Of a stretch of 64,000 nt of DNA, positions 29,877 through 43,454 are shown in pieces. Position 1 is the first letter of the stretch. The number at the start of each line of letters is the position of its first letter. Source of the stretch: Microtetraspora sp. NBRC 13810 (GTDB lineage Bacteria > Actinomycetota > Actinomycetes > Streptosporangiales > Streptosporangiaceae); assembly GCF_030268685.1 (NCBI RefSeq), contig NZ_BSRQ01000002.1, positions 496,001 to 560,000 on the forward strand, written 5' to 3'. The notes beneath the pieces were generated by a model. The model saw nothing but the letters and a program-made list of their open reading frames with translations, had not been told where the DNA came from and ran no database searches. Both the position numbers and the translations under genes were made by a program.

Positions 29877-30428
29877 TGGCGTTGCGCTCATCGGCTGGCG
29901 GTGACCAGGGCCGCACGGCCGGATCATGGGGGGAAGGGATCCGACCGTGCGACGGTCCCTCGCCTTACTCGCGGAGGGGGGCCGCGCGCGTAGAAGAAGG
30001 TATCTCAGCAGGATGAGCGCCGACTTCCGCGATTGTGCCTATTCACCGGATCCCCGCCTTGTCCGTGGGCGCGTTCGCCGTTTCGCCTTTTCTGAAGAGC
30101 GCCTGCTCGACGACCCGGCAGCGCGTTTCGTCGTCGGGGTGGCCTCGTTCGTGGACACCGGCGCGCCTTTCCCTCCGTGCCGGCGCGGCGGCTCTGACCT
30201 GCGGCGGCAGCGGCCGGGCGGCGGCGACCCGCCGGGATGGCGACCCGGGTGGCCGCGGTGACCTCGTCCGGGTCGCCCTCGCTGACCAAGCTCTCCCGTT
30301 CACACGGTGAGGTCGGGAAGAATTGCGGGCAACCTGGAGCCCCAATATTCTGCGCAATTTCCTTACATATCCGTATCCGGCGGCACACAATGCGGGTTCC
30401 ACAGGTGTTCGAGCCTCCTGGAGACCAC
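29877..30428. other. Intergenic region with no convincing gene
   Basis: About 550 bases between the PBP4 terminator and the first CAP gene. Open frames on both strands here have compositions unlike proteins (Arg/Pro/Gly runs) and no recognisable domain. The last 100 bases are relatively AT-rich (AATATTCTGCGCAATTTCC and TTACATATCCGTATCC) and probably hold the promoter of the CAP gene. Confidence 0.5.
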
Positions 30429-31346
30429 ATGCGCAGACTCACCCGGACCCTGTTGTGCCTCGGCGGTCTGACGGCGGTGGGCGCGTCCGCCGTCCCGGCG
30501 CAGGCCGCCGCGCAGAACGGGTCGCCGTGGCGGCCGGCGGACGACTGCCAGGTCGTGGCGGCGCGGCCGACGGCCACGGCCACCCTCGTGTACGCGCTGG
30601 GGTTGCGCACCGGGTGCGCGGACGACGCGACGGCGGTGCTCCAGATCCGCAGCGTCGGCGTCGCCGACCAGCTCGTCCGGCAGGGGCGCATCGTCGTGCG
30701 GAACGGCAGATTCACCCTCACCGCCCCCTGCTCCCCCACCCCCGTCACCTACTACGTCGCCGTCGCCGACAGCGCGCGGAACGTCTACCGGTCCGAACGC
30801 ATCCAGCTCAGATGCACCCCGGCCACGGCGACCCGCACCCCGCCCGCCGCGCCGGCCGCGTCCCCGAGCGGGTGGCCGCCGCCGCAGGCCGGCGGCTCCG
30901 CCCGGCCCGCCGCACCGAGCGGCGTTCCCGCGCCTGCGCCGTCCGCGCGCCGGGCGACGGGCACGGCGGCGGAGGAGGAGGTCGTCCGGCTGACGAACGA
31001 GGCACGCGCGGCGAACGGGTGCGGACCGCTGGCCCATGACCCGCAGTTACGGGCGGCGGCGCTCGGGCACTCGACGGACATGGCGGCGAACGGCTACTTC
31101 TCGCACGACTCCCGGGACGGCAGGGACCTCGGCGACCGCATCGGGGCCACCGGCTTCGCCCCGCTGCGCGCCTGGGGTGAGAACATCGCCTTCGGCCAGC
31201 CGACCCCGGCCGCCGTCGTCCGGGCCTGGCTGGACAGCCCCGGCCACCGGGCGAACATCATGAACTGCGCCTACACCCACATCGGCGTGGGCCAGGCGGG
31301 CGCCACCGGCCGCCCCTACTGGACGCAGAACTTCGCCCGCCACTGA
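30429..31346 (+). CDS. Secreted CAP/SCP-domain protein (copy 1)
   Basis: 305 residues. The signal peptide is MRRLTRTLLCLGGLTAVGASAVPAQA. Residues 35-130 form a small Cys-containing beta-rich domain. A Pro/Ala linker follows (about 135-180), then a CAP (CRISP/PR-1) domain with VVRLTNEARAANGCGPLAHDPQLRAAALGHSTDMAANGYFSHDSRDGR, the GENIAFG motif and HRANIMNCAYTHIGVG. The HxxxM.... and GENIA motifs hold the His/Glu metal tetrad of the family. Bacterial members are extracellular with poorly known roles. The ATG at 30429 is the only start that gives a clean signal peptide. A paralogue follows. Confidence 0.87.
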   Translation: MRRLTRTLLCLGGLTAVGASAVPAQAAAQNGSPWRPADDCQVVAARPTATATLVYALGLRTGCADDATAVLQIRSVGVADQLVRQGRIVVRNGRFTLTAPCSPTPVTYYVAVADSARNVYRSERIQLRCTPATATRTPPAAPAASPSGWPPPQAGGSARPAAPSGVPAPAPSARRATGTAAEEEVVRLTNEARAANGCGPLAHDPQLRAAALGHSTDMAANGYFSHDSRDGRDLGDRIGATGFAPLRAWGENIAFGQPTPAAVVRAWLDSPGHRANIMNCAYTHIGVGQAGATGRPYWTQNFARH

Positions 31347-31616
31347 CACCCGCCGCCGACCCGCCCCCGACCCGCCGCCGACCCCGCCATCGGCCCGACG
31401 CCGACCCCGCGACCCCGCCAGCGACCCCGCCGGGAGCGCCACCGGCCCCCGGCCGCTGACGGCCACCGCCGACCCTCACCGCCATTCCCGTCGCCGACCT
31501 CGGCAACGGCATAACCGGCCGGAGCGGTGACCGGAGGCCGTTCATGACCTCAGGACGGGGAAGTTGTGACAGTTGAGGTCGGTGTGGCCCGTGAGGTGAC
31601 CGGGAAGTGCACGGAA
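31347..31616. repeat. Low-complexity CCGACCC(C)GCC-rich spacer between the CAP genes
   Basis: From about 31348 to 31450 the plus strand is a degenerate repeat of CCGCCGACCC and CGACCCCGCC units. It does not code convincingly. The second half holds a promoter-like GTGACGCGTATAAG just after the window given (31634-31646). Confidence 0.5.
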
Positions 31617-32303
31617 ATGAGCGAACTGCGCGTGACGCGTATAAGAGGGATTCGGTTTACCCTGAGCCCAGATTTCTTGAAGAAACGTCCAGCATGTTCG
31701 GATCCGCGGAACCGGAAACGCGCCCTCGCCGGAACCCTGGTGTGCCTCGGCGGCCTGGCCACCCTGACCCCGCTCCTTCCGGCGCGGGCCGAGGCGTCCG
31801 CCGGCCGGTGCGGCGCCACGGCGGCCCGGCTCGCGGCCCCGGCCACCCCGTCCGCCGCGCGGCTACCGGGCAGGCGGTGCGCGAAGAAGTCACCCGGGGC
31901 GCGGCGGACCACCACGCACTCGTGGCCGGAGTACGAGGTCATCCGGCTCACCAACCTGGTCCGCAGGATATACGGCTGCGGCCCGGTCCTCCCCGAGCCG
32001 CGGCTGCACGCCGCCGCGCTGTGGCACTCCCGGGACATGGCGGCCCAGGGGTACTTCTCGCACACGTCCCGGGACGGCAGGGAGCTGACCGACCGCCTCG
32101 CCGGCGCGGGACTGCACAGCCTGCGCTCCTGGGGCGAGAACATCGCGCACGGCTACGAGACCCCGGCCGCCGCCGTACGCGGGTGGCTGACCAGTCCGGG
32201 CCACCGGGCGAACATCGTGAACTGCCGCTACACCCACATCGGGGTGGGCCTGGCCGGCAACCCCGACGATCTCTACTGGACCCAGAATTTCGCCGGCCGC
32301 TAG
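31617..32303 (+). CDS. Secreted CAP/SCP-domain protein (copy 2)
   Basis: Paralogue of the upstream CAP gene, lacking its extra N-terminal domain. Residues 90-228 form the CAP domain (VIRLTNLVRRIYGCGPVLPEPRLHAAALWHSRDMAAQGYFSHTSRDGRELTDRL, WGENIAHGYETPAAAVRGWL, HRANIVNCRYTHIGVG). A hydrophobic stretch LAGTLVCLGGLATLTPLLPARAEA serves as signal peptide. The start is uncertain: ATG 31617 gives a long basic pre-segment. TTG 31677 (LKKRPACSD) fits better with a TATAAG -10 near 31641. GTG 31566 is also in frame. Convergent with ilvC. Confidence 0.8.
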   Translation: MSELRVTRIRGIRFTLSPDFLKKRPACSDPRNRKRALAGTLVCLGGLATLTPLLPARAEASAGRCGATAARLAAPATPSAARLPGRRCAKKSPGARRTTTHSWPEYEVIRLTNLVRRIYGCGPVLPEPRLHAAALWHSRDMAAQGYFSHTSRDGRELTDRLAGAGLHSLRSWGENIAHGYETPAAAVRGWLTSPGHRANIVNCRYTHIGVGLAGNPDDLYWTQNFAGR

Positions 32304-32365
32304 GCGTACCGGCCACCTCCTACGGCGGCCGTCAGCGCGACCCGGCGCCCGGGGACCCGGCCGTG

Positions 32366-32422
32366 CGGCTCGCGCCCGGTCCCGCCCCGCCTTGCGGCGG
32401 GCGGGGTGACGGGCGCGAGCCG
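32366..32422. terminator. Large bidirectional hairpin between CAP copy 2 and ilvC
   Basis: An outer 13-bp stem CGGCTCGCGCCCG (32366-32378) with 32410-32422 and an inner CCGCCCCGCC/GGCGGGCGG stem around TTGC. It lies between convergent stops and can work in both directions. Confidence 0.65.
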
Positions 32423-32434
32423 TACCGGCAGGGG

Positions 32435-33430
<996 letters not shown>

Positions 33431-33447
33431 TTAGCTAACCTTTCGTG

Positions 33448-33972
33448 TCATGCGCTTCGGTCCAAGGCACGGAGCGAGCGGTCGGTGATGGAGCGGGCGC
33501 CGCGGCCTATGGCCACCATGCCCGACTGCACGAGTTCCTTGATGCCGAACGGCTCCAGCACCCTGATGAAGGCGGCGAGCTTCTCCGGCGTGCCGGTGAC
33601 CTCGATCGTCACGGCGTCCGAGGCCACGTCGACGCAGCGGGCGCGGAACAGCGACACCAGCTCCAGCACGTTCGAACGGGTGTCGGCATCGGCCCTGACC
33701 TTGATGAGCATGAGTTCACGCTGCACCGACTGGCCAGTGTCGAGCTCGACTATCTTGAGCACGTTGACCAGCTTGTTGAGCTGCTTGGTCACCTGCTCCA
33801 ACGGGAGTTCCTCGACGTTCACCACGATGGTCATCCGGGAGATGTCCTGGTGTTCCGTCGGCCCGACGGCCAGCGAGTCGATGTTGAATCCCCGCCGGCT
33901 GAACAACGACGCCACCCGGGCGAGCACGCCGGGCCGGTTCTCCACGAGCACCGAGAGCGTGTGCCTGCTCAT
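33448..33972 (-). CDS. ilvN: Acetolactate synthase, regulatory (small) subunit
   Basis: 174-residue regulatory subunit that raises activity of the catalytic subunit and confers valine inhibition. The N-terminal ACT domain (residues 3-78) starts HTLSVLVENRPGVLARVASLFSRRGFNIDSLAVG. The C-terminal ALS_ss domain contains VELDTGQSVQRELMLIKVRAD and IVEVTGTPEKLAAFIRVLEPFGIKELVQSG. The ATG at 33972 lies 5 bases after the ilvB stop. The open frame further upstream is antisense-like and lacks homology. Confidence 0.96.
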   Translation of the reverse strand: MSRHTLSVLVENRPGVLARVASLFSRRGFNIDSLAVGPTEHQDISRMTIVVNVEELPLEQVTKQLNKLVNVLKIVELDTGQSVQRELMLIKVRADADTRSNVLELVSLFRARCVDVASDAVTIEVTGTPEKLAAFIRVLEPFGIKELVQSGMVAIGRGARSITDRSLRALDRSA

Positions 33973-33977
33973 ATCCG

Positions 33978-35723
33978 TTACTCCTCCGCGTCCCAGACGG
34001 GCGCCATGTCCCGGGCGATCTTGATGTCGTCGTTGCTGGTTCCCGCGGCGACCATCGGCCAGACCATCGCGTCCTGGTGCACGACGAAGTCGACCACCAC
34101 CGGGACGTCGTTGATCTCCATCGCCTTCTTGATGGTGGCGTCCACGTCCTCGGGCCGCTCGCACCGCAGGCCGACGCAACCGTACGCCTCCGCCAGCTTG
34201 ACGAAGTCGGGGATGCGGCGCACCGCCTGGAGATCGGTGTTGGAGTAGCGCTTGTCGTAGAACAGCGTCTGCCACTGGCGGACCATGCCGAGGTTACCGT
34301 TGTTGATGACGGCGATCTTGATCGGCACCCCTTCCAGCGCGCAGGTGGCCAGCTCCTGGTTGGTCATCTGGAAGCAGCCGTCGCCGTCGATCGCCCACAC
34401 CGTGGACTCCGGGCTGCCCATCTTGGCGCCCATCGCGGCGGGCACCGCGAAGCCCATCGTGCCGGCGCCGCCGGAGTTGACGAAGCTGCCGGGCCGCTCG
34501 TAGCGGATGAACTGCGAGGCCCACATCTGGTGCTGGCCGACACCCGCGACGTAGATCGCCTCCGGCCCGACCAGCTCGCTCAGCCGCTCCAGGACGAACT
34601 GCGGCGCGGTCGAGTCGTCGCCGAAGTCGTCGTAGCCGAGGGCGTAGGTGTTCTTGTAGCCGTTGAGCTGGGTCCACCAGTCGGTGTAGTCGCCGGTGCG
34701 GCCCTCGGCGTGCTCGTGCTCCACGGCGCCGATCAGGTCGCCGATCACCTCGCGGCAGTCGCCGACGATGGGGACGTCGGCGTGCCGGTTCTTGGAGATC
34801 TCCGCCGGGTCGATGTCCGCGTGCACGATCTTCGCGTGCGGCGCGAAGCTGGAGAGCTGGCCGGTCACCCGGTCGTCGAAGCGGGTGCCGAGCGCGACGA
34901 TCAGGTCGCTGCGCTGGAGGGACGCGACCGCCGCCACGTTGCCGTGCATGCCCGGCATGCCGACGTGCTGCGGGTGGCTGTCGGGGAAGGTGCCGCGGGC
35001 CATCAGCGTGGTGGTCACCGGGATGCCGGTCAGCTCGGCCAGCCGGCGCAGCTCGTCCGAGGCGCGCGCCTTGTGCACGCCGCCGCCGACGTAGAGCACC
35101 GGCCGCCTGGCCTCGACGATCAGCTTGGCCGCTTCGCGGATCTGCTTGGAGTGCGGGCGGGTCACCGGCCGATAGCCGGGGAGCTGCAACGTGGGCGGCC
35201 AGGAGAACGTCATCGTCGCCTGGAGCGCGTCCTTGGCGATGTCCACCAGGACCGGGCCGGGCCGGCCGGTGAGCGCGACGTGGAACGCCTCGGCGATGGT
35301 CCGCGGGATGTCGGCCGGGTCGGTCACCAGGAAGTTGTGCTTGGTGATCGGCATCGTGATGCCGACGATGTCCGCCTCCTGGAACGCGTCGGTCCCGATC
35401 ATCGGCGACGCCACCTGGCCGGTGATCGCGACGATCGGCACCGAGTCCATGTAGGCGTCGGCGATGGCGGTCACCAGGTTGGTCGCTCCGGGCCCGCTGG
35501 TCGCCATGCACACGCCGACCTTGCCGGTCGCCTGCGCGTAGCCCTCGGCGGCGTGCCCGGCGCCCTGCTCGTGCCGTACAAGCACGTGCCGGATCTTGGC
35601 CGAGTCGTAGAGGGGATCGTAGGCGGGAAGGATCGCACCGCCCGGGATCCCGAAAACCGTGTCGACCCCGACGTGCTCCAGGGCCCTGACGAGGGCCTGC
35701 GCACCTGTCATCCGTTCGGTCAT
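33978..35723 (-). CDS. ilvB: Acetolactate synthase, catalytic (large) subunit
   Basis: 581-residue ThDP enzyme that makes 2-acetolactate or 2-aceto-2-hydroxybutyrate, the first common step. The catalytic Glu is in [16 protein letters not shown] near residue 50. The middle FAD-type domain contains [12 protein letters not shown] and [13 protein letters not shown]. The ThDP/Mg motif is [19 protein letters not shown]...[13 protein letters not shown] near 430-470. The ATG at 35723 ([11 protein letters not shown]) has AAGGA 8 bases upstream. A longer frame exists but starts within the attenuator. Controlled by the leader and terminator upstream. Confidence 0.97.
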
Positions 35724-35779
35724 CGGCTCGTTCCTTGTGTGGCTGAGCTTGCTGCTGGCATGAAAACGTGCTGCTGGCA

Positions 35780-35820
35780 TAAAAAAGGCCCCACCCGCCC
35801 TATGGGGCGGAACTGGGGCG
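35780..35820 (-). terminator. Attenuator terminator upstream of ilvB
   Basis: On the minus strand GCCCCA...TGGGGC and CGCCC...GGGCG pair around CATA, followed by TTTTTT. It lies 60 bases before the ilvB start and downstream of the leader peptide. Confidence 0.85.
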
Positions 35821-35859
35821 GCGCGCAGGTCGAAGTGCTTCGCTCAGTGGCCTGCGCGC
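35819..35859 (-). promoter_or_regulatory. Pause/antiterminator hairpin of the ilvB leader
   Basis: A perfect 10-bp inverted repeat GGCGCGCAGG...CCTGCGCGCC spans the end of the leader peptide. A ribosome stalled at the ILVVL codons would expose its first arm. It sits just before the terminator and is the expected 1:2 (pause) structure of an attenuator. Confidence 0.7.
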
Positions 35860-35894
35860 CAGCGAAGTACTACGAGAATGTCCCTGCGAAGCAT
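35844..35894 (-). CDS. ilvB leader peptide MLRRDILVVLRWRAGH
   Basis: 16 residues (ATG 35894, TGA 35844) with the run Ile-Leu-Val-Val-Leu, all three products of the pathway. Actinobacterial ilvB leaders of the same kind are known. A strong promoter lies immediately upstream: TTGACA at 35924-35929 and TAGGGT at 35902-35907 with 16 bases between, so transcription should start at or next to the ATG, giving a leaderless leader peptide. Attenuation hairpins follow. Confidence 0.85.
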   Translation of the reverse strand: MLRRDILVVLRWRAGH

Positions 35895-35901
35895 GGCACC
35901 T

Positions 35902-35929
35902 ACCCTAACCGGTGAGGTCATTGTGTCAA
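35902..35929 (-). promoter_or_regulatory. Promoter of the ilvBNC leader
   Basis: On the minus strand TTGACA and TAGGGT are 16 bases apart. The TAGGGT ends 7 bases before the leader ATG. This is the best consensus promoter I see in the window. Confidence 0.75.
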
Positions 35930-35961
35930 CTCCGTGGGACGCTTGTCTCATCATGTGAACG

Positions 35962-38679
35962 TCAGACGCTGCTCTGCAGGGACGACAGGCTCGTCCGCAT
36001 CAGCGAGTCGACGCCCCGCGCGGCCATCGGCCGGGCCACCAGGTAGCCCTGGCCGCGGGTGCAGCCCATCTCCCTGAGCAGCTCCAACTGCTCGGGCCGC
36101 TCGATGCCCTCCGCCACGACGATCAGGCCGAGGTCGTGGCCGAGCTGGACGATCGTGCGGGTCAGCAGGGTCAGCGTCTCGTCCGCGCCCAGGCCGGACA
36201 CGAACGACGGGTCGATCTTGATCATGTCGACCGGGAGCTGCCGCAGCAGGGCCAGCGAGGCGTAGCCGGTGCCGAAGTCGTCGATGGCCAGCCGTACGCC
36301 GAGGGCGCGCAGCTCGGTGAGCCGGTTGACGGTCTCCCCGGCGTCCTCGACCAGCATCTCCTCGATGACCTCCAGGGTGAGCGCGCTCGGCGGCAGCCCG
36401 CTCTCGGCCAGCGCCGCGGACACCGTCTCCACGAACCTGGGGGCGGTGATCTGCCGGGCCGACAGGTTCACCGACAGCCCGATGTCCCACGACGACGCCC
36501 GCCACGCGGCCACCTCGCGGCACGCCTCGCGCAGGATCCACTCGCTCAGCGGCACGATCAGGCCGGTGTCCTCGGCCACCCCGAGAAACTGCTCGGGCGG
36601 CACGAACGTGCTCCCCCGCCACCAGCGCACCAGCGCCTCGACCGCGGTCACCCGGGAGGTCGCGAGGTCCACCACCGGCTGGAACTCCACGGCGAACTGG
36701 TCGTCGAGCAGCGCCCGCTGCAGATCGGCGGCGAGTTCCAGGCGGCGCACCACGTCGGTGTGCATGTGCGCGGCGAACACCTCCACCCGGCGCCCGCCCA
36801 GCTCCTTGGCCCTGGCCATCGCCACGTCCGCGTTGCGGATCACGTCGGCGGAGGGCACCTCCTCCTCGGCGAAGGCCACCCCGACGCTCGCGGTCAGCGC
36901 GATGTCCCGGTCGGCGACCCGGAACGGCTCCTGCGACACCGCGTGCACCAGCCGCTCCGCCTGGTCCACCACCGCCTGCACGTCCTGGCAGGACTCCACC
37001 AGCACGGCGAACTCGTCCCCGCCCCACCGGGCAAGCGTGTCGTCGGGCCGTACGGCGGAGCGCAGCCGGCGGGCGGCCTGGCCGAGCAGGAAGTCGCCGC
37101 TGGCGTGCCCGACCGAGTCGTTCACCGCGGTGAAGCCGTCGAGATCCAGGAAGAGCACGGCCCCGCGCGCCCCCGGCCGGCCGGAGAGCACCTGCCTGGT
37201 GCGCTCCTCGAAGTAGGCGCGGTTGGGCAGCCCGGTCACGCCGTCGTGGAAGGTCAGGTGGTTGACCTGACTGAGCAGCGCCTCCTGGTCGCTGATGTCC
37301 CGGGTGGACACCAGCAGCAGGTCCTCGCCGCGGGTGTGCCGGGTCGCCACCGAGACCGTGGGCCGCCAGGTCCCGTCGGCGGCGCGGATCCGGCAGCCGA
37401 CCTTGCACGCCCCGCCGGGCTCCGCGTCGTCCTCCTCCACGCCCAACGCGGAGAGCGCGGTCATGACGTCGGGTATGTCCTCCGGGTGGATGTAGTCGAG
37501 GATCGAGCCGCCGACGAGCTCGTCCGGGCGGTAGCCGTACACCTCCACGACCTGGTCGCCGATCTCGTAAATCACGCCCGACTGGTCGCAGACCAGCACG
37601 AGGTCGCCCGAGCGCTCGGCCAGCTCCCTGATCCTGCGGTCGGTGACGACGGCCCGGCGGCGCAGCGAGGCGTTGTCCGCCAGGAGCACGAACGAGCGGA
37701 ACAGCAGCACGAGCACCACCGAGGCGATGATCGCCGACACCAGCGGCACCGGGTGCTCCGAACGGCCGCTCACCGCGCTCACCAGCACGAACACCGTGGC
37801 CACCGCGACGAGGGTGAGCGGCACGCCGGCGATCACGCCCGCGGCGACCGGCCCCGGCGGGCGGGACTCCTCAGCCATCCGGACCGCGCGGGACCTGCGC
37901 CCGCTCCACGGCGCGGCGGCGAGCAGCAGGAAGGCGACCGGCGCCAGCCAGACCCCGGTCATCGAAGGCTCCTCGCCCTGCAGCCGTGCCACCGCCGTGG
38001 CCATCTCCCCCGCCGCGATCGCGGCCAGCGCGCCCAGCCCGGCCAGCCCGACGGGCCAGGCCGAGGACCGGGTGGTCACCACCGAGGGGCCCACCGCGCA
38101 GGCGGCGAGCAGGCACAGCATGGGGATCGTGAGCGGCAGGGCGAACACCCCCGGGTCGCCGATCGCCCGGTAGATCGGGCCGAGCGCGATCACCCAGCTG
38201 ATCACGAAGAACGAGGCGGCGCATAAGTAGGCGTCGGTGACGTGCCGCAGCACGGCCCGGCCGTGCGGCGGCGGCGCGGCGGTCAGCCAGCAGCCGACCG
38301 TGATCAGCGCCATCCCGGTGAGCAGCGGCAGGTCGGCGAAGGTCATCGCGAAGGACGCGTCGTCCGCGACCGGCCGCAGGCCGATCCCGACCAGCCACGC
38401 CGCCGCGCCGGACGCCAGCCAGCGCCAGGCCAGCGCCGTACGGCGGAGCCGGGAGGCGATCCGCCGGGCCGCTGTGACCAGTGACACCACGGCGAGGAGC
38501 GCGGCCGCGACGCCCGCGGTCGCGCCGACGAGCACTGTCGGCGCGTCGGTGATCAGCCCAGCCGCCAATCCCGCCACGCCGGCCGCCGCGGCGGCGGTCA
38601 GCGGCACCCGTGGATCACGCCAACGGATCAAAGTCGTCTGCCCATCCGGTGTCTGTTCGGCACGCTGCTGATGCGTCAC
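35962..38679 (-). CDS. Membrane PAS-GGDEF-EAL cyclic di-GMP protein
   Basis: 905 residues that can both make and break cyclic di-GMP. About eight to ten membrane helices fill residues 25-335. A PAS domain (about 350-465; LVLVCDQSGVIYEIGDQVVEVYGYRPDELVG) follows, then a GGDEF domain (about 485-645) with intact GGDEF (ARWGGDEFAV) and an inhibitory RxxD site (RPDD) five residues before it, and an EAL domain (655-900) with intact EALVRW, NLSARQ, EVIEEML and DDFGTGYAS blocks. All catalytic motifs are present, so it may be bifunctional. The ATG at 38679 starts MTHQQRAEQTP. The upstream region has repeated GTGACAAC-type half sites. Confidence 0.92.
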   Translation of the reverse strand: MTHQQRAEQTPDGQTTLIRWRDPRVPLTAAAAAGVAGLAAGLITDAPTVLVGATAGVAAALLAVVSLVTAARRIASRLRRTALAWRWLASGAAAWLVGIGLRPVADDASFAMTFADLPLLTGMALITVGCWLTAAPPPHGRAVLRHVTDAYLCAASFFVISWVIALGPIYRAIGDPGVFALPLTIPMLCLLAACAVGPSVVTTRSSAWPVGLAGLGALAAIAAGEMATAVARLQGEEPSMTGVWLAPVAFLLLAAAPWSGRRSRAVRMAEESRPPGPVAAGVIAGVPLTLVAVATVFVLVSAVSGRSEHPVPLVSAIIASVVLVLLFRSFVLLADNASLRRRAVVTDRRIRELAERSGDLVLVCDQSGVIYEIGDQVVEVYGYRPDELVGGSILDYIHPEDIPDVMTALSALGVEEDDAEPGGACKVGCRIRAADGTWRPTVSVATRHTRGEDLLLVSTRDISDQEALLSQVNHLTFHDGVTGLPNRAYFEERTRQVLSGRPGARGAVLFLDLDGFTAVNDSVGHASGDFLLGQAARRLRSAVRPDDTLARWGGDEFAVLVESCQDVQAVVDQAERLVHAVSQEPFRVADRDIALTASVGVAFAEEEVPSADVIRNADVAMARAKELGGRRVEVFAAHMHTDVVRRLELAADLQRALLDDQFAVEFQPVVDLATSRVTAVEALVRWWRGSTFVPPEQFLGVAEDTGLIVPLSEWILREACREVAAWRASSWDIGLSVNLSARQITAPRFVETVSAALAESGLPPSALTLEVIEEMLVEDAGETVNRLTELRALGVRLAIDDFGTGYASLALLRQLPVDMIKIDPSFVSGLGADETLTLLTRTIVQLGHDLGLIVVAEGIERPEQLELLREMGCTRGQGYLVARPMAARGVDSLMRTSLSSLQSSV

Positions 38680-38703
38680 GGGCCCTCACCGTCGAGGTGC
38701 ACC

Positions 38704-38770
38704 GTGACAACTTTGTCGCCAGTGTGTTCGCTCGCACCGACGCACGTGGTCACAACGTCTCAGTTGTCAC
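38704..38770. promoter_or_regulatory. Inverted GTGACAAC half-sites upstream of the GGDEF-EAL gene
   Basis: GTGACAAC (38704-38711) and its exact reverse complement GTTGTCAC (38763-38770) lie 51 bases apart, with a further GTCACAAC between (38749-38756). Repeated half-sites in a GGDEF-EAL promoter suggest binding of a regulator such as BldD, which controls cyclic di-GMP genes in Streptomyces. The identity is a guess. Confidence 0.35.
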
Positions 38771-38924
38771 CGATCTGATAACCAGCCCGACCGGATCGCC
38801 GCTGAGGCGGCCCAGCCGGATGTGCGGCCGGATCGCGGCTCCACACCACGGCTTTACTCTCGGTAGAGTCCACCGTACGCACATAAGGTCACGGTGCAGC
38901 CACGGTCCGGAATCCATTGTTGGC

Positions 38925-39860
38925 TCAGTATGAACCCGTGATCACGTTATTGAGCGGTTCCCCTGCCATATAACGCAGAAGCTGTGAGCGAACGAGCTTC
39001 AGGGAGCGGCGCAGGGAGGCCGGGGTGCTGCCGGCGACGTGCGGCGTGATGAAGACGCCGGGCGCGCTCCACAGCGGGTGGCCGGGCGGCAGCGGCTCCG
39101 GGTCGACCACGTCCAGCGCGGCGCGCAGGCGGCCCGTGGTCAGCTCCGCGACCAGCGCGCCGGTGTCCACCACCGAGCCGCGTGCCGCGTTGACCAGCAG
39201 CGCGCCGTCCTTCATCCGGGCGAGGAAGGCGGCGTCCACCATGCCGGCCGTCGCGGCGGTCGCCGGCACGAGCAGCACCACCACGTCGGCCGCGGGCAGC
39301 AGCGCGGGCAGCTCGTCCTCGCCGTGCACCCGCACCGGCGTGCCCTGCGGCCCCGCCATCTCCCTGGCCGCGCGCGCCACCCGAACGACCTCCACCTCGA
39401 ACCCGTCCAGCCGCCGCTCCAGCGCCGCGCCGATCGAGCCGTAGCCGATGATCAGCACTTTTGCGTCGGCGAGCACGCCGGTGTGGTGGTAGGCCCACTT
39501 CTCGGCCCGCTGCGCCGCCGCGAACTCCGGGAACTCCCGGAGCACCGCGATCATCGCGCCGACCGCCCACTCGGCCGTCCCCGCGTCGTGCACGCCGCGC
39601 GCGTTGCACAGGATCACGCCCGAGGGCAGGTAAGGCCGGTACGGCTCGACGCCCGCCGTGACCGTCTGCAGCAGCCGCAGCTTCTTCATCCCCGCCAGCA
39701 CCCCGGGCACGTCCGGCACCGTCACCAGCGGCGGCACCCACACCTCGACCTCGTCGGCCCCGCCCGGCATCGCCCCCGTGCCGTCGTAGACCACGCACTC
39801 CACCTCCGGCAGATCCCGCAGAACCCCGGCGACATCCAGCGAAGGCACCCAGATCTTCAT
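38925..39860 (-). CDS. D-isomer-specific 2-hydroxyacid dehydrogenase
   Basis: 311 residues. The N-terminal catalytic domain is MKIWVPSLDVAGVLRDLPEVECVVYDG. The NAD domain has KVLIIGYGSIGAALERRL near residue 140. The catalytic Arg is in LVNAARGSVVDTGALVAEL near 225 and the Glu/His in VDPEPLPPGHPLWSAPGVFITPHVAG near 260-280. It reduces a 2-oxo acid or oxidises a D-2-hydroxy acid with NAD(P). The substrate is unknown; the short form suggests a glyoxylate/hydroxypyruvate or small D-hydroxyacid enzyme. The ATG at 39860 is the point where homology begins. The open frame before it lies in a tandem repeat. Confidence 0.9.
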   Translation of the reverse strand: MKIWVPSLDVAGVLRDLPEVECVVYDGTGAMPGGADEVEVWVPPLVTVPDVPGVLAGMKKLRLLQTVTAGVEPYRPYLPSGVILCNARGVHDAGTAEWAVGAMIAVLREFPEFAAAQRAEKWAYHHTGVLADAKVLIIGYGSIGAALERRLDGFEVEVVRVARAAREMAGPQGTPVRVHGEDELPALLPAADVVVLLVPATAATAGMVDAAFLARMKDGALLVNAARGSVVDTGALVAELTTGRLRAALDVVDPEPLPPGHPLWSAPGVFITPHVAGSTPASLRRSLKLVRSQLLRYMAGEPLNNVITGSY

Positions 39861-39891
39861 GCCCCAAACCCTAACCGCCCCGCCTCCCCAC

Positions 39892-40006
39892 TCTTCCCGG
39901 CCGCGTCTTCCCCGGCCGGGCGGGCGGCCAGGACTCCACGGGGGTTCCCATCTTCCCGGCCGCGTCTTCCCCGGCCGGGCGGGTGGCCAGGACTCCGCGG
40001 GGTTCC
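39892..40006 (+). repeat. Two tandem copies of a 59-base repeat
   Basis: Copy 1 (39892-39950) and copy 2 (from 39951) both begin TCTTCCCGGCCGCGTCTTCC, continue with a CCGGCCGGGCGGG core and GGCCAGGACTCC and end GGTTCCC. They differ at only three or four positions, including one deletion. The unit holds an internal CCCGGCCGGG palindrome. A further degraded piece may follow near 40080. It is noncoding and lies between two divergent genes. Confidence 0.85.
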
Positions 40007-40201
40007 CGCGCCTCGCGCGGGTGAGCGGTCCGGCCCGGTCGCTCCGTCCGCGGACGCCGGTGGCAGGGGGCGGCCCCTCGCCTCCTTCGCCGGGCGGGTG
40101 GTCGAACACGGAGCGGTACCGATCTCGCGGGGAGGGGCGTGCGCCGGGGGGAGAGAGGCAGTATGGCGGGCGAGGGTCGGTGCGGATGACGGAGGTTGGG
40201 C

Positions 40202-41362
40202 GTGGCTTCTCGTGCTGGTGTGCTTGCGGTCGTGGTGGCGACGGCGCTGGTGAGCGGGTGTTCGGCGGGGTCGCCCGAGCGGGTGGGAGCGGGGAGGACG
40301 CCGTCCGCTCCGCAGGAGAGTCCCGCGGCGCCGGTGGCCGGGGAGACGCCCGAGGCTTCCGGGTCGGGGACTCCGGGCCCGGATCGGGCGGTGCGGCCCG
40401 AGCGGGCGCGGACGCTGGTGCAGGGGCTGGCGGTGCCGTGGGCGATCGCGTTCCTGCCGGGCGGGGACGCGCTGGTGACCGAGCGGGACTCGGCGCGGCT
40501 GCTGAGGGTGACGCCGGAGGGCGAGGCCGGCACGGTCGGCACGATCGCCGGGGTCTCACCGGAGAGCGAGGGCGGTCTGCTGGGCGTCGCCGTGTCCCCC
40601 ACATACGATCAAGACAACTATATTTTCGTATATTTCACCGCAAATCAGGACAACCGAATCGTCCGGTACCGCCTCCGGAACGATCGTCTGACCGACCCCG
40701 TGCCCATTCTCACCGGCATCCCCAAGGCGGCCATCCACAACGGCGGACGCCTCGCCTTCGGACCCGACGGCCTGCTCTACGCCACCACCGGCGAGGTCGG
40801 CGACCGCCCGCTCGCCCAGGACCGCGCCTCGCTCGCCGGCAAGATCCTGCGCCTCACCGAGGACGGCGCCCCCGCCCCCGGCAACCCCACGGCCGGCTCC
40901 CCCGTCTGGAGCCACGGCCACCGCAACGTCCAGGGCCTCGCCTGGGATCCGCGGGGACGGCTGTACGCCACCGAGTTCGGCGCCAACACCTTCGACGAGA
41001 TCAACCGGATCGAGAAGGGCGCCAACTACGGCTGGCCGGAGGTCGAGGGCGTGGGCGGCGACAACCGCTTCACCGACCCCCTCGTCACCTGGTCCACCGC
41101 CGAGGCGTCCCCCTCCGGCCTGGCCTACGGGGGCGGCTCGCTGTGGGCGGGCGCGCTGCGCGGGCAGCGGCTGTGGCGGGTGCCGGTCTCGGCGGACGGC
41201 TCCCTCGGCACCCCCGTCCCGCTGTTCCAGGAGGAGTACGGCAGGCTGCGCGCGGTCGCCACCGCGCCGGACGGCTCGATCTGGATCGCCACCAGCAACA
41301 AGGACGGCCGGGGCGCCCCGGCCGCCGCCGACGACCGGATCATCGTCCTGCCCGCCGGCTGA
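40202..41362 (+). CDS. PQQ-dependent sugar dehydrogenase-like lipoprotein (GSDH family)
   Basis: 386 residues. A lipobox LVSGC at residues 16-20 follows a short hydrophobic segment, so it should be a membrane-anchored outer-surface protein. A beta-propeller of the glucose/sorbosone dehydrogenase (YliI/Asd) type follows, with FLPGGDALVTERDSARLLRVTPEGEAG, GGLLGVAVSPTYDQDNYIFVYFTA, IHNGGRLAFGPDGLLYATTGEVGD and SHGHRNVQGLAWDPRGRLYATEFG. The His and Arg in GHRNVQG are the usual cofactor/active-site residues. It oxidises aldose sugars with PQQ if that is supplied. GTG 40202 follows GGAGG by 6 bases. Confidence 0.87.
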   Translation: MASRAGVLAVVVATALVSGCSAGSPERVGAGRTPSAPQESPAAPVAGETPEASGSGTPGPDRAVRPERARTLVQGLAVPWAIAFLPGGDALVTERDSARLLRVTPEGEAGTVGTIAGVSPESEGGLLGVAVSPTYDQDNYIFVYFTANQDNRIVRYRLRNDRLTDPVPILTGIPKAAIHNGGRLAFGPDGLLYATTGEVGDRPLAQDRASLAGKILRLTEDGAPAPGNPTAGSPVWSHGHRNVQGLAWDPRGRLYATEFGANTFDEINRIEKGANYGWPEVEGVGGDNRFTDPLVTWSTAEASPSGLAYGGGSLWAGALRGQRLWRVPVSADGSLGTPVPLFQEEYGRLRAVATAPDGSIWIATSNKDGRGAPAAADDRIIVLPAG

Positions 41363-41450
41363 CCCCCGGCTCACCGCGGGCCGCGCGGGAGGAGGGCGTG
41401 CCGTGCCGTACCGAGGAGGCGGCGGACGGCGGCGCTCGGGAACTGGGACC

Positions 41451-43454
41451 TCAGCCGCCGCCCGGCTCGTCCTTCGTGCAGGTGAGGTCGGTCTCCGGGC
41501 GGTAGACCGTGCGGATCGGGCGGTCGCGCTTCACCTCGGCGCCGTCCCGGTAGTAGACCCGGGTCACCTCGATGGTGAAGCCCTGCTGGCCGGTCATCGG
41601 GATGCAGTCCGGGCCGTCGTCGGTCTCCTTGGTGAAGTTCGTGAAGCTGTGCTTCTCGGAGGCGACGGCCTCGATCCGGTCGTAGCGCTTCGTGCTCCAG
41701 AAGGCCACCGTGATCGAGGTGTCCGTGTAGGACGTCTTGACGAGCACGCCGTACTTGGAATCGTTCTGCCACTGGAAGTCCGGCTGCGGGAAGGACACCG
41801 TGGACTCGCGGCCGGGGGGATAGCGGCTGATGTAGAACTCGTGCGCCGTGTGCTTGACGTCCTTGAGACCGCCGAAGAAGACCGCGTTGTACATCGTGGT
41901 GACGAACTGCGAGATCCCGCCGCCCACGTCGTCGACCAGGCGGCCGGCCACGATCTGCGGCGCCTCGACGAAACCGCGCGCCTTGTCCCGCTGGCCGACG
42001 ACGTCGTTGAGGGAGAAGGTCTCCCCCGGCTTCACGAGGTAGCCGTCGAGGATGTCGGCGATGGTGTGGATGTTCGTCACCCGCGGCGCGCAGCAGGGGT
42101 GCTGCGTGGTGAACGTGCTGATCTGCTCCTTGATGCCCATGGCGCGCACCTCGGCGTCGCCGACCCGCGGCTTCACCGTGGTGAGGCTCACCGGGATCGT
42201 CCGGCGGCTGCCGTCCTGGATGACCTTGACCACCGCCGCCGCCAGCTTCGTCGCGTCGACGCCCTGCCCGGCGCGGCCGGGGATCAGCTTGGGCCGGCCG
42301 CCCACGATGTCGTAGGTCGGCTCGACCGGCGCGATGGCGGGGTTGACGAGGTGCTTCTCCACCTCGGCCAGCGCCATCTTGGCGTTGAACACCGGGCGCA
42401 GCCTGCCCTGCGCGTCGGGGACGAAGCGCAGGTGGGCGGCGAGGGTCTCCCTGGGGAGCTGGACCCGCTTGGCGCCGGCGGTCAGCAGGATGGGGGCGGC
42501 CACGGCCCGGCGCGCCGTGGTGGTGGCCTCCTCGAAGGCGTCCGTCGTGGCCCGCGGCTTGAGCACGGTGACCGGCAGCGCGACCGGGTCGGTCGTCGTG
42601 AAGTAGGCGTCCTGGATGGCCTTGGCCGCGGCCTCCCGCTCCAGTTCCCTGCCGTCGCGCGGGGTGACGATCTCCGGCTGGATGCCCTTGAAGCGGATCT
42701 CGCCCTCGCGGATCGGGCGGTCGATCTCCTGGGCCAGCGCGTCGACGGCCTCGGCCAGCTTGGCCGAGTTGACCTCGATCCTGGGTTCCACCGGGGTGGT
42801 GCCGGTCAGCCCCCGCCACACCTGGACCGGGCTGGGGAAGCCGCTCGGCACCTGCTCGATCGTGCCCACGACGTCGAGCTCCAGCCCGGCCTCCTCGGGC
42901 ATCACGTCCTGCCGGATGCCCATCGCCTCGACCACGATCGGCGCCTTGCTGCGCTTGTCGAGCGTCTGCCTGAGCTTGTCGGCGGCCTGGGTGACGGTGA
43001 GCCCGCCGATGTCCACGCCGGCGACGGTGGTGCCGCGCAGCATCACGCCGGACATCGTGATCGCCGGGATCGCGTAGGCGAGGGCGAGGACGAGGACCAG
43101 GATCACGACCGTGACGAGGATCCTGCGGCCACCGCGGCGGCGGGGCCGCTCGTCGTCGGCTTCGAGCCGGTCCTGCCCGGGGTCTCCGCCGTCGGGGGGG
43201 CCGGGCACGACGGGCGGGTGGCGGCGCTCGGGCCTGCCCTCCATCACCCACGGCTCCGCGGGCGGCTGCACCGGCGGCAGTGCCGACGGGCCGCGACCGC
43301 CGCGCGGGGGCGGGCTCGGCTTGCCGAAGATGTCCGGGGAGACGCCCGGAGGGAGTTTCCTTCCGCCGGGTGTGCCCGGCCCTTCGGCGGCGGCCCTGGA
43401 CGCTCCCTTGATCCCTCGGGTCTTCGGCGGCGGCGCCGTGGAGAAGGGGTCCAT
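41451..43454 (-). CDS. VanW-family membrane-anchored peptidoglycan-associated protein
   Basis: 667 residues. A Pro-rich cytoplasmic segment (residues 1-110) is followed by one membrane helix (RRILVTVVILVLVLALAYAIP, about 113-135). Extracellular repeats follow (about 145-430) that look like two PG_binding_4 type units, then a VanW domain (about 435-600) with NIHTIADILDGYLVKPGETFSLNDVVGQRDKARGF, GGGISQFVTTMYNAVFFGGL and FQWQNDSKYGVLVKTSY. VanW is found in vancomycin resistance clusters and in general envelope proteins. Its biochemical role is unknown. The ATG at 43454 has GGAG 8 bases upstream. Confidence 0.87.
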   Translation of the reverse strand: MDPFSTAPPPKTRGIKGASRAAAEGPGTPGGRKLPPGVSPDIFGKPSPPPRGGRGPSALPPVQPPAEPWVMEGRPERRHPPVVPGPPDGGDPGQDRLEADDERPRRRGGRRILVTVVILVLVLALAYAIPAITMSGVMLRGTTVAGVDIGGLTVTQAADKLRQTLDKRSKAPIVVEAMGIRQDVMPEEAGLELDVVGTIEQVPSGFPSPVQVWRGLTGTTPVEPRIEVNSAKLAEAVDALAQEIDRPIREGEIRFKGIQPEIVTPRDGRELEREAAAKAIQDAYFTTTDPVALPVTVLKPRATTDAFEEATTTARRAVAAPILLTAGAKRVQLPRETLAAHLRFVPDAQGRLRPVFNAKMALAEVEKHLVNPAIAPVEPTYDIVGGRPKLIPGRAGQGVDATKLAAAVVKVIQDGSRRTIPVSLTTVKPRVGDAEVRAMGIKEQISTFTTQHPCCAPRVTNIHTIADILDGYLVKPGETFSLNDVVGQRDKARGFVEAPQIVAGRLVDDVGGGISQFVTTMYNAVFFGGLKDVKHTAHEFYISRYPPGRESTVSFPQPDFQWQNDSKYGVLVKTSYTDTSITVAFWSTKRYDRIEAVASEKHSFTNFTKETDDGPDCIPMTGQQGFTIEVTRVYYRDGAEVKRDRPIRTVYRPETDLTCTKDEPGGG

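Follow-up and report, generated by a model that had tools for sequence, protein, structure and literature searches.

A probably leaderless leader peptide and a probable ribosome-controlled attenuator upstream of ilvBNC in Microtetraspora sp. NBRC 13810

Introduction

Control of ilvB by a short upstream reading frame has been described in several actinomycetes. For the ilvBNC operon of Corynebacterium glutamicum, transcription is reported to start one nucleotide from the leader start codon; changing the leader ATG to AGG cut expression by 80%, and a leader-lacZ fusion was active (Morbach et al., via PMC11857589). A three-hairpin attenuator model with mutants is presented for the same operon; effects were moderate to weak when mutations touched nothing but the antiterminator and anti-antiterminator (PMC11857589). 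The ilvB-II motif was characterised by in-line probing and reporters (PMC10272879). In Mycobacterium tuberculosis, attenuation of ilvB1 depends on the leader codons: an LVVI-to-AAAA replacement abolishes induction (PMC13236596). According to the models published for Corynebacterium and M. tuberculosis, antiterminator and terminator are mutually exclusive.

IlvL of Streptomyces lividans and six other amino-acid leader peptides of this organism are called leaderless (PMC8079986), and a leaderless ilvB leader is reported in C. diphtheriae. ilvB leaders had been predicted in three genera (PMC1262725), and further prior work is cited (PMC5784534, PMC4046766, PMC3890552, PMC4633059). The view expressed in the initial annotation of the present locus, that leaderless control peptides are rarely considered in attenuation, is therefore not supported, with such leaders described for C. 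glutamicum (PMC11857589), S. lividans (PMC8079986) and C. diphtheriae.

Here we analyse the region preceding ilvBNC in Microtetraspora sp. NBRC 13810, in a 64,000-nucleotide stretch of genomic DNA hereafter called the window. The leaderless ilvB attenuator itself is already known from relatives, and the window probably holds a further, ordinary example.

Results

Organisation of the locus

The attenuator and ilvBNC all lie on the minus strand of the window, to which all coordinates below refer. Sequence and Pfam domains give the order promoter, leader ORF, 10-bp stem, terminator, ilvB, ilvN, ilvC. The acetolactate synthase large and small subunits are encoded by ilvB (33978..35723; TPP_enzyme N, M and C domains) and ilvN (33448..33972; ALS_ss_C, ACT), and ketol-acid reductoisomerase by ilvC (32435..33430; KARI_N, KARI_C). 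The true start of ilvB is likely ATG 35723, since many relatives align from residue 1 of this shorter form; a ribosome-binding site, AAGGAA, lies at 35731..35736. A 600-aa ORF from 35780 was considered as an alternative and is unlikely, as it begins inside the terminator tail. Within the same genome the IlvB protein has nine further, weaker matches (26-39% identity), presumably other TPP enzymes, and among these ilvB-like proteins only the window copy is nearly identical to the IlvB of relatives.

The leader ORF (35844..35894; ATG 35894-35892, stop TGA 35846-35844) has 16 codons and encodes MLRRDILVVLRWRAGH, a peptide found identical in Spongiactinospora gelatinilytica. It contains the control codons ATT CTC GTA GTA CTT (I L V V L) at 35865..35879. 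Between the leader ORF and ilvB, terminator scanning and folding locate an intrinsic terminator hairpin at 35788..35819, followed by a run of six U (35781..35786). Every element of an ilvB attenuator with an ILVVL leader, as first annotated, is thus present on this strand, and so is the T-run terminator. Directly upstream of the leader lies a co-directional gene for a PAS-GGDEF-EAL protein (35962-38679; domain calls). Its stop codon (35962) is separated from the leader ATG by 67 nt, and the promoter falls inside that gap.

Comparative sample

Upstream regions of ilvB were gathered by whole-genome searches and from a named collection (80 loci kept of at least 593 found), which makes an uneven sample, weighted to near relatives and Streptomyces. 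From 248 loci, nine were dropped as not this ilvB, leaving 239; removal of nine duplicates (same last 200 nt) and two regions that were too short left 228. Five of these had no recognised ILV-rich ORF (L088, L224, L225, L246, L247) and were set aside, leaving 223.

The promoter test described below retained 215 regions, of which 213 possess a terminator between leader ORF and ilvB, as the window does; the two without (L056, L070) were dropped. Distances between stem and terminator were measured in 211 regions, after removal of two more. For pairing analyses, three of the 213 lacked usable anchors, and the remaining 210 were reduced to 164 distinct leaders. The covariation alignment was made from 67 leaders of the near type, thinned to 43, and includes a few from other families.

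Promoter and start of the leader transcript

The window carries a -35 element TTGACA (35924..35929) and a -10 element TAGGGT (35902..35907) that ends 7 nt before the leader ATG. The intervening spacer of 16 nt is short compared with relatives: among 215 promoter calls it measures 16 nt in two and 17-19 nt in 213. TAGGGT agrees with TATAAT at three of six positions and fits the actinomycete -10 pattern TAnnnT. A scan for E. coli-type sigma-70 promoters found no site because TAGGGT fails its 4-of-6 rule; the TAnnnT pattern was used instead. The near-consensus promoter of the initial annotation (TTGACA-16-TAGGGT, 7 nt before the ATG) is therefore right in its -35 element, its TAnnnT-type -10 element and its distance to the ATG, and needs qualifying as to the match with TATAAT and the short spacer. 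Transcription in S. lividans starts on average 6.3 nt after the -10 element (PMC8079986). With the 7-nt spacing of the window, the predicted start is therefore the A of the leader ATG (35894), within a nucleotide or two.

We searched the 223 regions for a TTGAC-like -35 element (at least 4 of 5 positions), a spacer of 15-19 nt and a NANNNT ending 5-8 nt before an in-frame leader start. Such a promoter is present in 215 of these 223 actinomycete regions. Among other ATG or GTG codons in them, 25 of 2596 pass the test, a comparison in which leaders could use any in-frame start and each control was a single position. The -10-to-start gap is 6 nt in 133 regions, 7 nt in 80 and 8 nt in two, ties being assigned to 6 nt. 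When the innermost start alone is considered and the -35 element ignored, 207 of the 223 regions still have a NANNNT ending at a distance of 6 or 7 nt, and each distance of 0-5 and 8-19 nt accounts for at most eight. TTGAC itself is found 35-38 nt before the innermost start in 187 of the 223.

Shine-Dalgarno cores precede the leader start in 43 of 215 regions and ilvB in 143 of 215. The 43 leader cores fall within the promoter-to-start spacing, and would stay untranscribed from that promoter. The window itself has its -10 element within 5-8 nt of the start and no good Shine-Dalgarno site. The arrangement is more than chance, given that the spacing from promoter to start recurs in 215 of 223 relatives and in 25 of 2596 control codons. 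The comparison thus supports the claim, made at the outset, of a transcript starting at the ATG: the leader start codon is very probably placed at the 5' end of the transcript, and leaderless is the best reading of the window leader.

Alternatively, the transcript may begin further upstream, by read-through from the GGDEF-EAL gene or from another promoter, which would give the leader a 5' UTR. That gene is on the same strand and ends only 67 nt from the ATG, a terminator scan of 35400-36400 found no terminator-like site between it and the leader promoter, and an in-frame ATG at 35954 would extend the leader to a 36-aa ORF. However, such an extension is not general, as four relatives (L014, L020, L024, L042) have a single start under both rule sets, and an upstream start does not account for the promoter-to-start spacing kept in nearly all regions. 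Nor is there a good ribosome-binding site: the AGGT of the window stops just 3 nt short of the ATG, within the gap between promoter and start, and this gap differs in sequence among relatives. In addition, three other actinomycetes are reported to start at the leader codon or one nucleotide from it. We give an upstream start very little credence, and retain the leaderless reading.

Eight of the 223 regions fail the promoter test (L050, L066, L073, L089, L092, L110, L115, L244). Several of their ORFs look like chance ORFs; L050 and L244 resemble real leaders with a poor -35 element, and L092, L110 and L115, from Actinoplanes and Paractinoplanes, are without the leaderless promoter pattern. Regions with no recognised ILV leader or no such pattern possibly represent losses, different control or misses of a simple rule.

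Control codons

Four of the five control codons are rare in the neighbouring genes. In four of these genes ATT makes up 1 of 96 Ile codons, GTA 3 of 207 Val codons and CTT 3 of 197 Leu codons; CTC is common (72 of 197 Leu codons). Of 86 near-type leaders, 84 keep GTAGTACTTCG unaltered, a conservation at the codon level that could also reflect helix alpha, described below.

Both observations argue against regulation that is independent of the control codons, by a fixed terminator or a response to a protein. Such regulation is reported for ilvB of S. coelicolor, where changes of the control codons are said to be without effect (Craster 1999, cited in PMC1262725). In contrast, codon changes abolish control in C. 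glutamicum (Morbach et al., via PMC11857589) and in M. tuberculosis (PMC13236596), and we regard codon-independent control of the window operon as quite improbable.

A riboswitch or T-box, binding for instance ppGpp or tRNA, would dispense with leader translation altogether. Some bacterial ilvB genes are indeed under ppGpp riboswitches (PMC10272879). However, Rfam covariance models, including those for riboswitches, T-boxes and known leaders, gave no match up to E 1 in window positions 30000-42000, the conserved part of the region is an ORF with ILV codons, and ppGpp left the probing pattern of Corynebacterium ilvB-II RNA unchanged (PMC10272879). This possibility can be given almost no weight; control through translation of the ILV codons remains our reading.

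Two predicted helices near the end of the leader ORF

Two predicted helices connect the end of the leader ORF with the segment before the terminator. Helix alpha pairs CUUCGC (35862..35867), overlapping Leu-Arg codons, with GCGAAG (35838..35843) directly after the stop codon; with its covariation and the folding of leaders without a ribosome, the latter arm is a candidate anti-antiterminator. Helix beta pairs GGCGCGCAGG (35851..35860), within the end of the leader ORF, with CCUGCGCGCC (35820..35829), which lies flush with the terminator and is our proposed antiterminator. Found by folding and covariation, beta consists of ten perfect base pairs around a 21-nt loop, plus a U35861-G35819 wobble. 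Through this wobble pair beta and terminator share one nucleotide, G35819.

The position of beta is nearly fixed at both ends. Among the 164 distinct loci, 131 have it start 3-5 nt past the final ILV codon. In 203 of 211 regions it lies between -3 and +2 nt from the terminator arm, a placement reached by about 45% of shuffled controls; 69 of these overlap the arm by 1-3 nt, 87 are flush and 47 leave 1-2 nt between. Over the class, the part shared by beta and terminator is 0-3 nt.

The two arms of beta also match one another better than those of other loci. The mean pairing score is 25.0 with a locus's own partner and 19.4 (sd 0.32) with re-matched partners, and none of 2000 permutations reaches the former. 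Scores exceed the shuffled 95% point in 127 of 164 loci; 51 loci outscore 90% or more of swapped partners, and 110 outscore 75% or more. The underlying search, positive in 164 of 164 at a score of at least 14, is lenient, as shuffled segments reach a median of 12.5.

In the 43-sequence alignment, 87.6% of cells are paired for alpha and 92.9% for beta. Together they reach 90.9%, against 84.9% in shuffles, and contain 42 double-change cells against 18.6 (0 of 500 shuffles in both cases), figures in which the permutation and shuffle controls leave shared ancestry. The two measures rated as least misled by relatedness are weaker: 7 double-change pairs against 5.1 in shuffles (26 of 500 reach this), while further pair types number 19, with 16.2 in shuffles (15 of 500). 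In alpha, CUUCG:CGAAG changes to CUUGG:CCAAG or CCGAG, and one alpha pair fails in 20 of 43 sequences. Sliding the alignment by 1-3 columns lowers pairing to 28-45%.

On the same alignment, RNAalifold recovers only six beta pairs with a covariation term of -0.09; it misses both alpha and the terminator, the 3' arm of the latter being ragged in this alignment. An anchored pairing map has modest contrast (best map window 0.59 paired, z 3.2) because registers vary. The 175-nt leader folds only modestly better than its shuffles (z -1.24; 25 of 200 fold as well), and support is therefore comparative and does not come from folding energy.

Some lineages deviate from this layout, as noticed by eye. 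One group of near relatives (L018, L121, L123, L125, L128, L130, L135, L169, L176, L177, L206) has leaders with 25-27 residues and a shortened ILVVL run, mostly VVL. A 5' insertion in these leaders, for example CUGGGGAC, is complementary to a segment between stop codon and beta, for example GUCCCCAG, and the two may form a replacement protector pairing. In four others (L052, L057, L098, L226), leaders of 8-10 residues end directly after the control codons, and the stop codon itself begins beta; the distance from control codons to beta is kept, and that to the stop codon is not. Streptomyces-type loci such as L067, L072, L103 and L116 have a separate hairpin immediately downstream of the stop codon and within beta's loop; its sequence changes with pairing kept, and no alpha-like pairing was noticed in them.

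Ribosome position and helix beta in the fold model

A translating ribosome was represented codon by codon as a footprint that reaches 15 nt upstream and 12 nt downstream of the first base of the A-site codon. Across the five codons ending with the last ILV codon, the predicted probability (P) of beta exceeds 0.5 in 153, 154, 152, 122 and 15 of 164 leaders; in short runs the first of these five codons are not ILV codons. With the ribosome at the stop codon, only 2 of 164 leaders retain beta at this level. In the window, P is 0.91 for ATT, CTC and the first GTA, 0.63 for the second GTA, and 0.00 for CTT and for the stop codon. By this gating, the window leader should therefore sense Ile, Leu and Val, but not via the last Leu codon.

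An earlier footprint model, of 26 nt centred on the second-last control codon, gave beta with P above 0.5 in 96 of 164 stalled leaders and in 1 of 164 at the stop codon. The two models differ by one nucleotide downstream and a few upstream, and the second GTA of the window is sensitive to this choice (0.00 in the earlier model against 0.63).

When no ribosome is placed on the RNA, folding disfavours beta in the window (P 0.07) and in 34 of the 47 leaders that share its peptide type, whereas beta is favoured in all 28 distinct Streptomyces-type leaders of the fold model. The basal pairs of the terminator keep a mean P of 0.91-0.96 in every ribosome state.

Antiterminator or pause hairpin

Classical competition for the terminator arm gains no support in these leaders: equilibrium folding keeps the terminator in all ribosome states, and no complement to its arm exceeds chance. 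In 164 distinct leaders, the upstream segment best complementary to this arm had a mean score of 10.6 against 12.2 in shuffled sequences, and none of the 164 rose above the shuffled 95% point. The idea that beta extends past an internal loop and invades the terminator arm was dropped as well. Before a control with shuffled flanks, beta could be extended by at least 1 nt into the arm in 156 of 164 leaders; with it, the rates were 48% and, for shuffled flanks, 39%, a difference little beyond chance.

The perfect 10-bp stem was originally taken for a pause hairpin. It would then synchronise polymerase and ribosome, something else preventing termination. The stem does lie just downstream of the leader ORF, where a ribosome at the stop codon would be predicted to open it, no terminator loss accompanies its formation in the fold models, and for C. 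glutamicum the top of hairpin H1 is described as the cause of a pause (PMC11857589). Yet complementarity of other segments to the terminator arm does not exceed chance, the stem is set against the terminator in nearly all regions measured, and the C. glutamicum hairpin corresponding to it is assigned as antiterminator (PMC11857589). We consider a pause hairpin unlikely. The stem, perfect as annotated, is better read as an antiterminator, because beta covaries, keeps a near-fixed distance to the control codons, lies against the terminator and is predicted to be gated by the ribosome.

Discussion

We propose that transcription of ilvBNC in the window is attenuated under ribosome control, by a leaderless system of the kind usual in Actinomycetia. 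We hold this with good confidence, slightly lowered because of the footprint sensitivity and the weak effects of the C. glutamicum antiterminator mutants. RNA polymerase would start at the leader AUG or within a nucleotide or two of it, and a ribosome would load on the bare 5' end, with no Shine-Dalgarno site. When charged Ile-, Leu- and Val-tRNAs are plentiful, the ribosome would reach the stop codon and cover the 5' arm of beta; beta could then not form, and the terminator would end transcription. When they are scarce, the ribosome is expected to stall on AUU, CUC or GUA and leave beta free, clearly so for AUU, CUC and the first GUA, and depending on the exact footprint for the second GUA. 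Beta would form against the terminator base, and RNA polymerase would read on into ilvB. If no ribosome loads, alpha and other 5' pairings would hold beta off, and termination is expected.

Leaderless loading is suggested as the rule for the ilvB leader in actinomycetes, a situation that Shine-Dalgarno-based attenuation models do not fit. The comparative set also frames two questions that published models leave: how termination is stopped by an antiterminator with hardly a base in common with the terminator, and what an unloaded leaderless leader does. For the first, a helix set directly against the base of the terminator may hinder closure of the terminator in the polymerase. A bolder proposal, which we hold only tentatively and judge more likely wrong than right, is that throughout the class the antiterminator blocks the terminator from closing in the exit channel while leaving its arm untaken, and that lineages differ in their unloaded default. 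We raised our estimate of it slightly because the terminator arm is without a conventional partner. A literature query on flush or coaxial antiterminators named no such attenuator among the titles it covered, which is weak evidence of absence. Were the proposal true, the group of the window would terminate by default, by means of a protector hairpin, the antiterminator of Streptomyces would form by default, and loading of the bare AUG would itself be a regulatory input.

Compared with the trp, his and ilv attenuators of E. coli and Salmonella, the scheme has in common that a stalled ribosome chooses between antiterminator and terminator. In contrast to the leader proposed here, those of enterobacteria carry a ribosome-binding site in a 5' UTR, and their antiterminator takes up the 5' arm of the terminator.

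Among actinomycetes, C. glutamicum IlvL resembles the window leader in its ILV codons and in a start at the leader codon, which for the window is predicted. Anti-antiterminator, antiterminator and terminator follow in the same order, with the bases of the latter two adjacent, the roles in the window being proposed ones. The peptide MTIIRLVVVTARRLP of C. glutamicum differs from that of the window, and its antiterminator and terminator share GCC (PMC11857589), as against the single wobble-paired nucleotide of the window. The ilvB1 system of M. tuberculosis is like the window scheme in having a uORF with control codons, LVVI in that species, and in its choice between antiterminator and terminator, with codon-dependent induction reported in M. 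tuberculosis. The IlvL leader of S. lividans TK24, MRTRILVLGKRVG, is leaderless, as predicted for the window, and is placed before ilvBHC with a terminator. Streptomyces-type leaders in our set nevertheless differ from the window: beta is predicted in them even without a ribosome, alpha was not seen by eye, and a separate hairpin often occupies the loop of beta.
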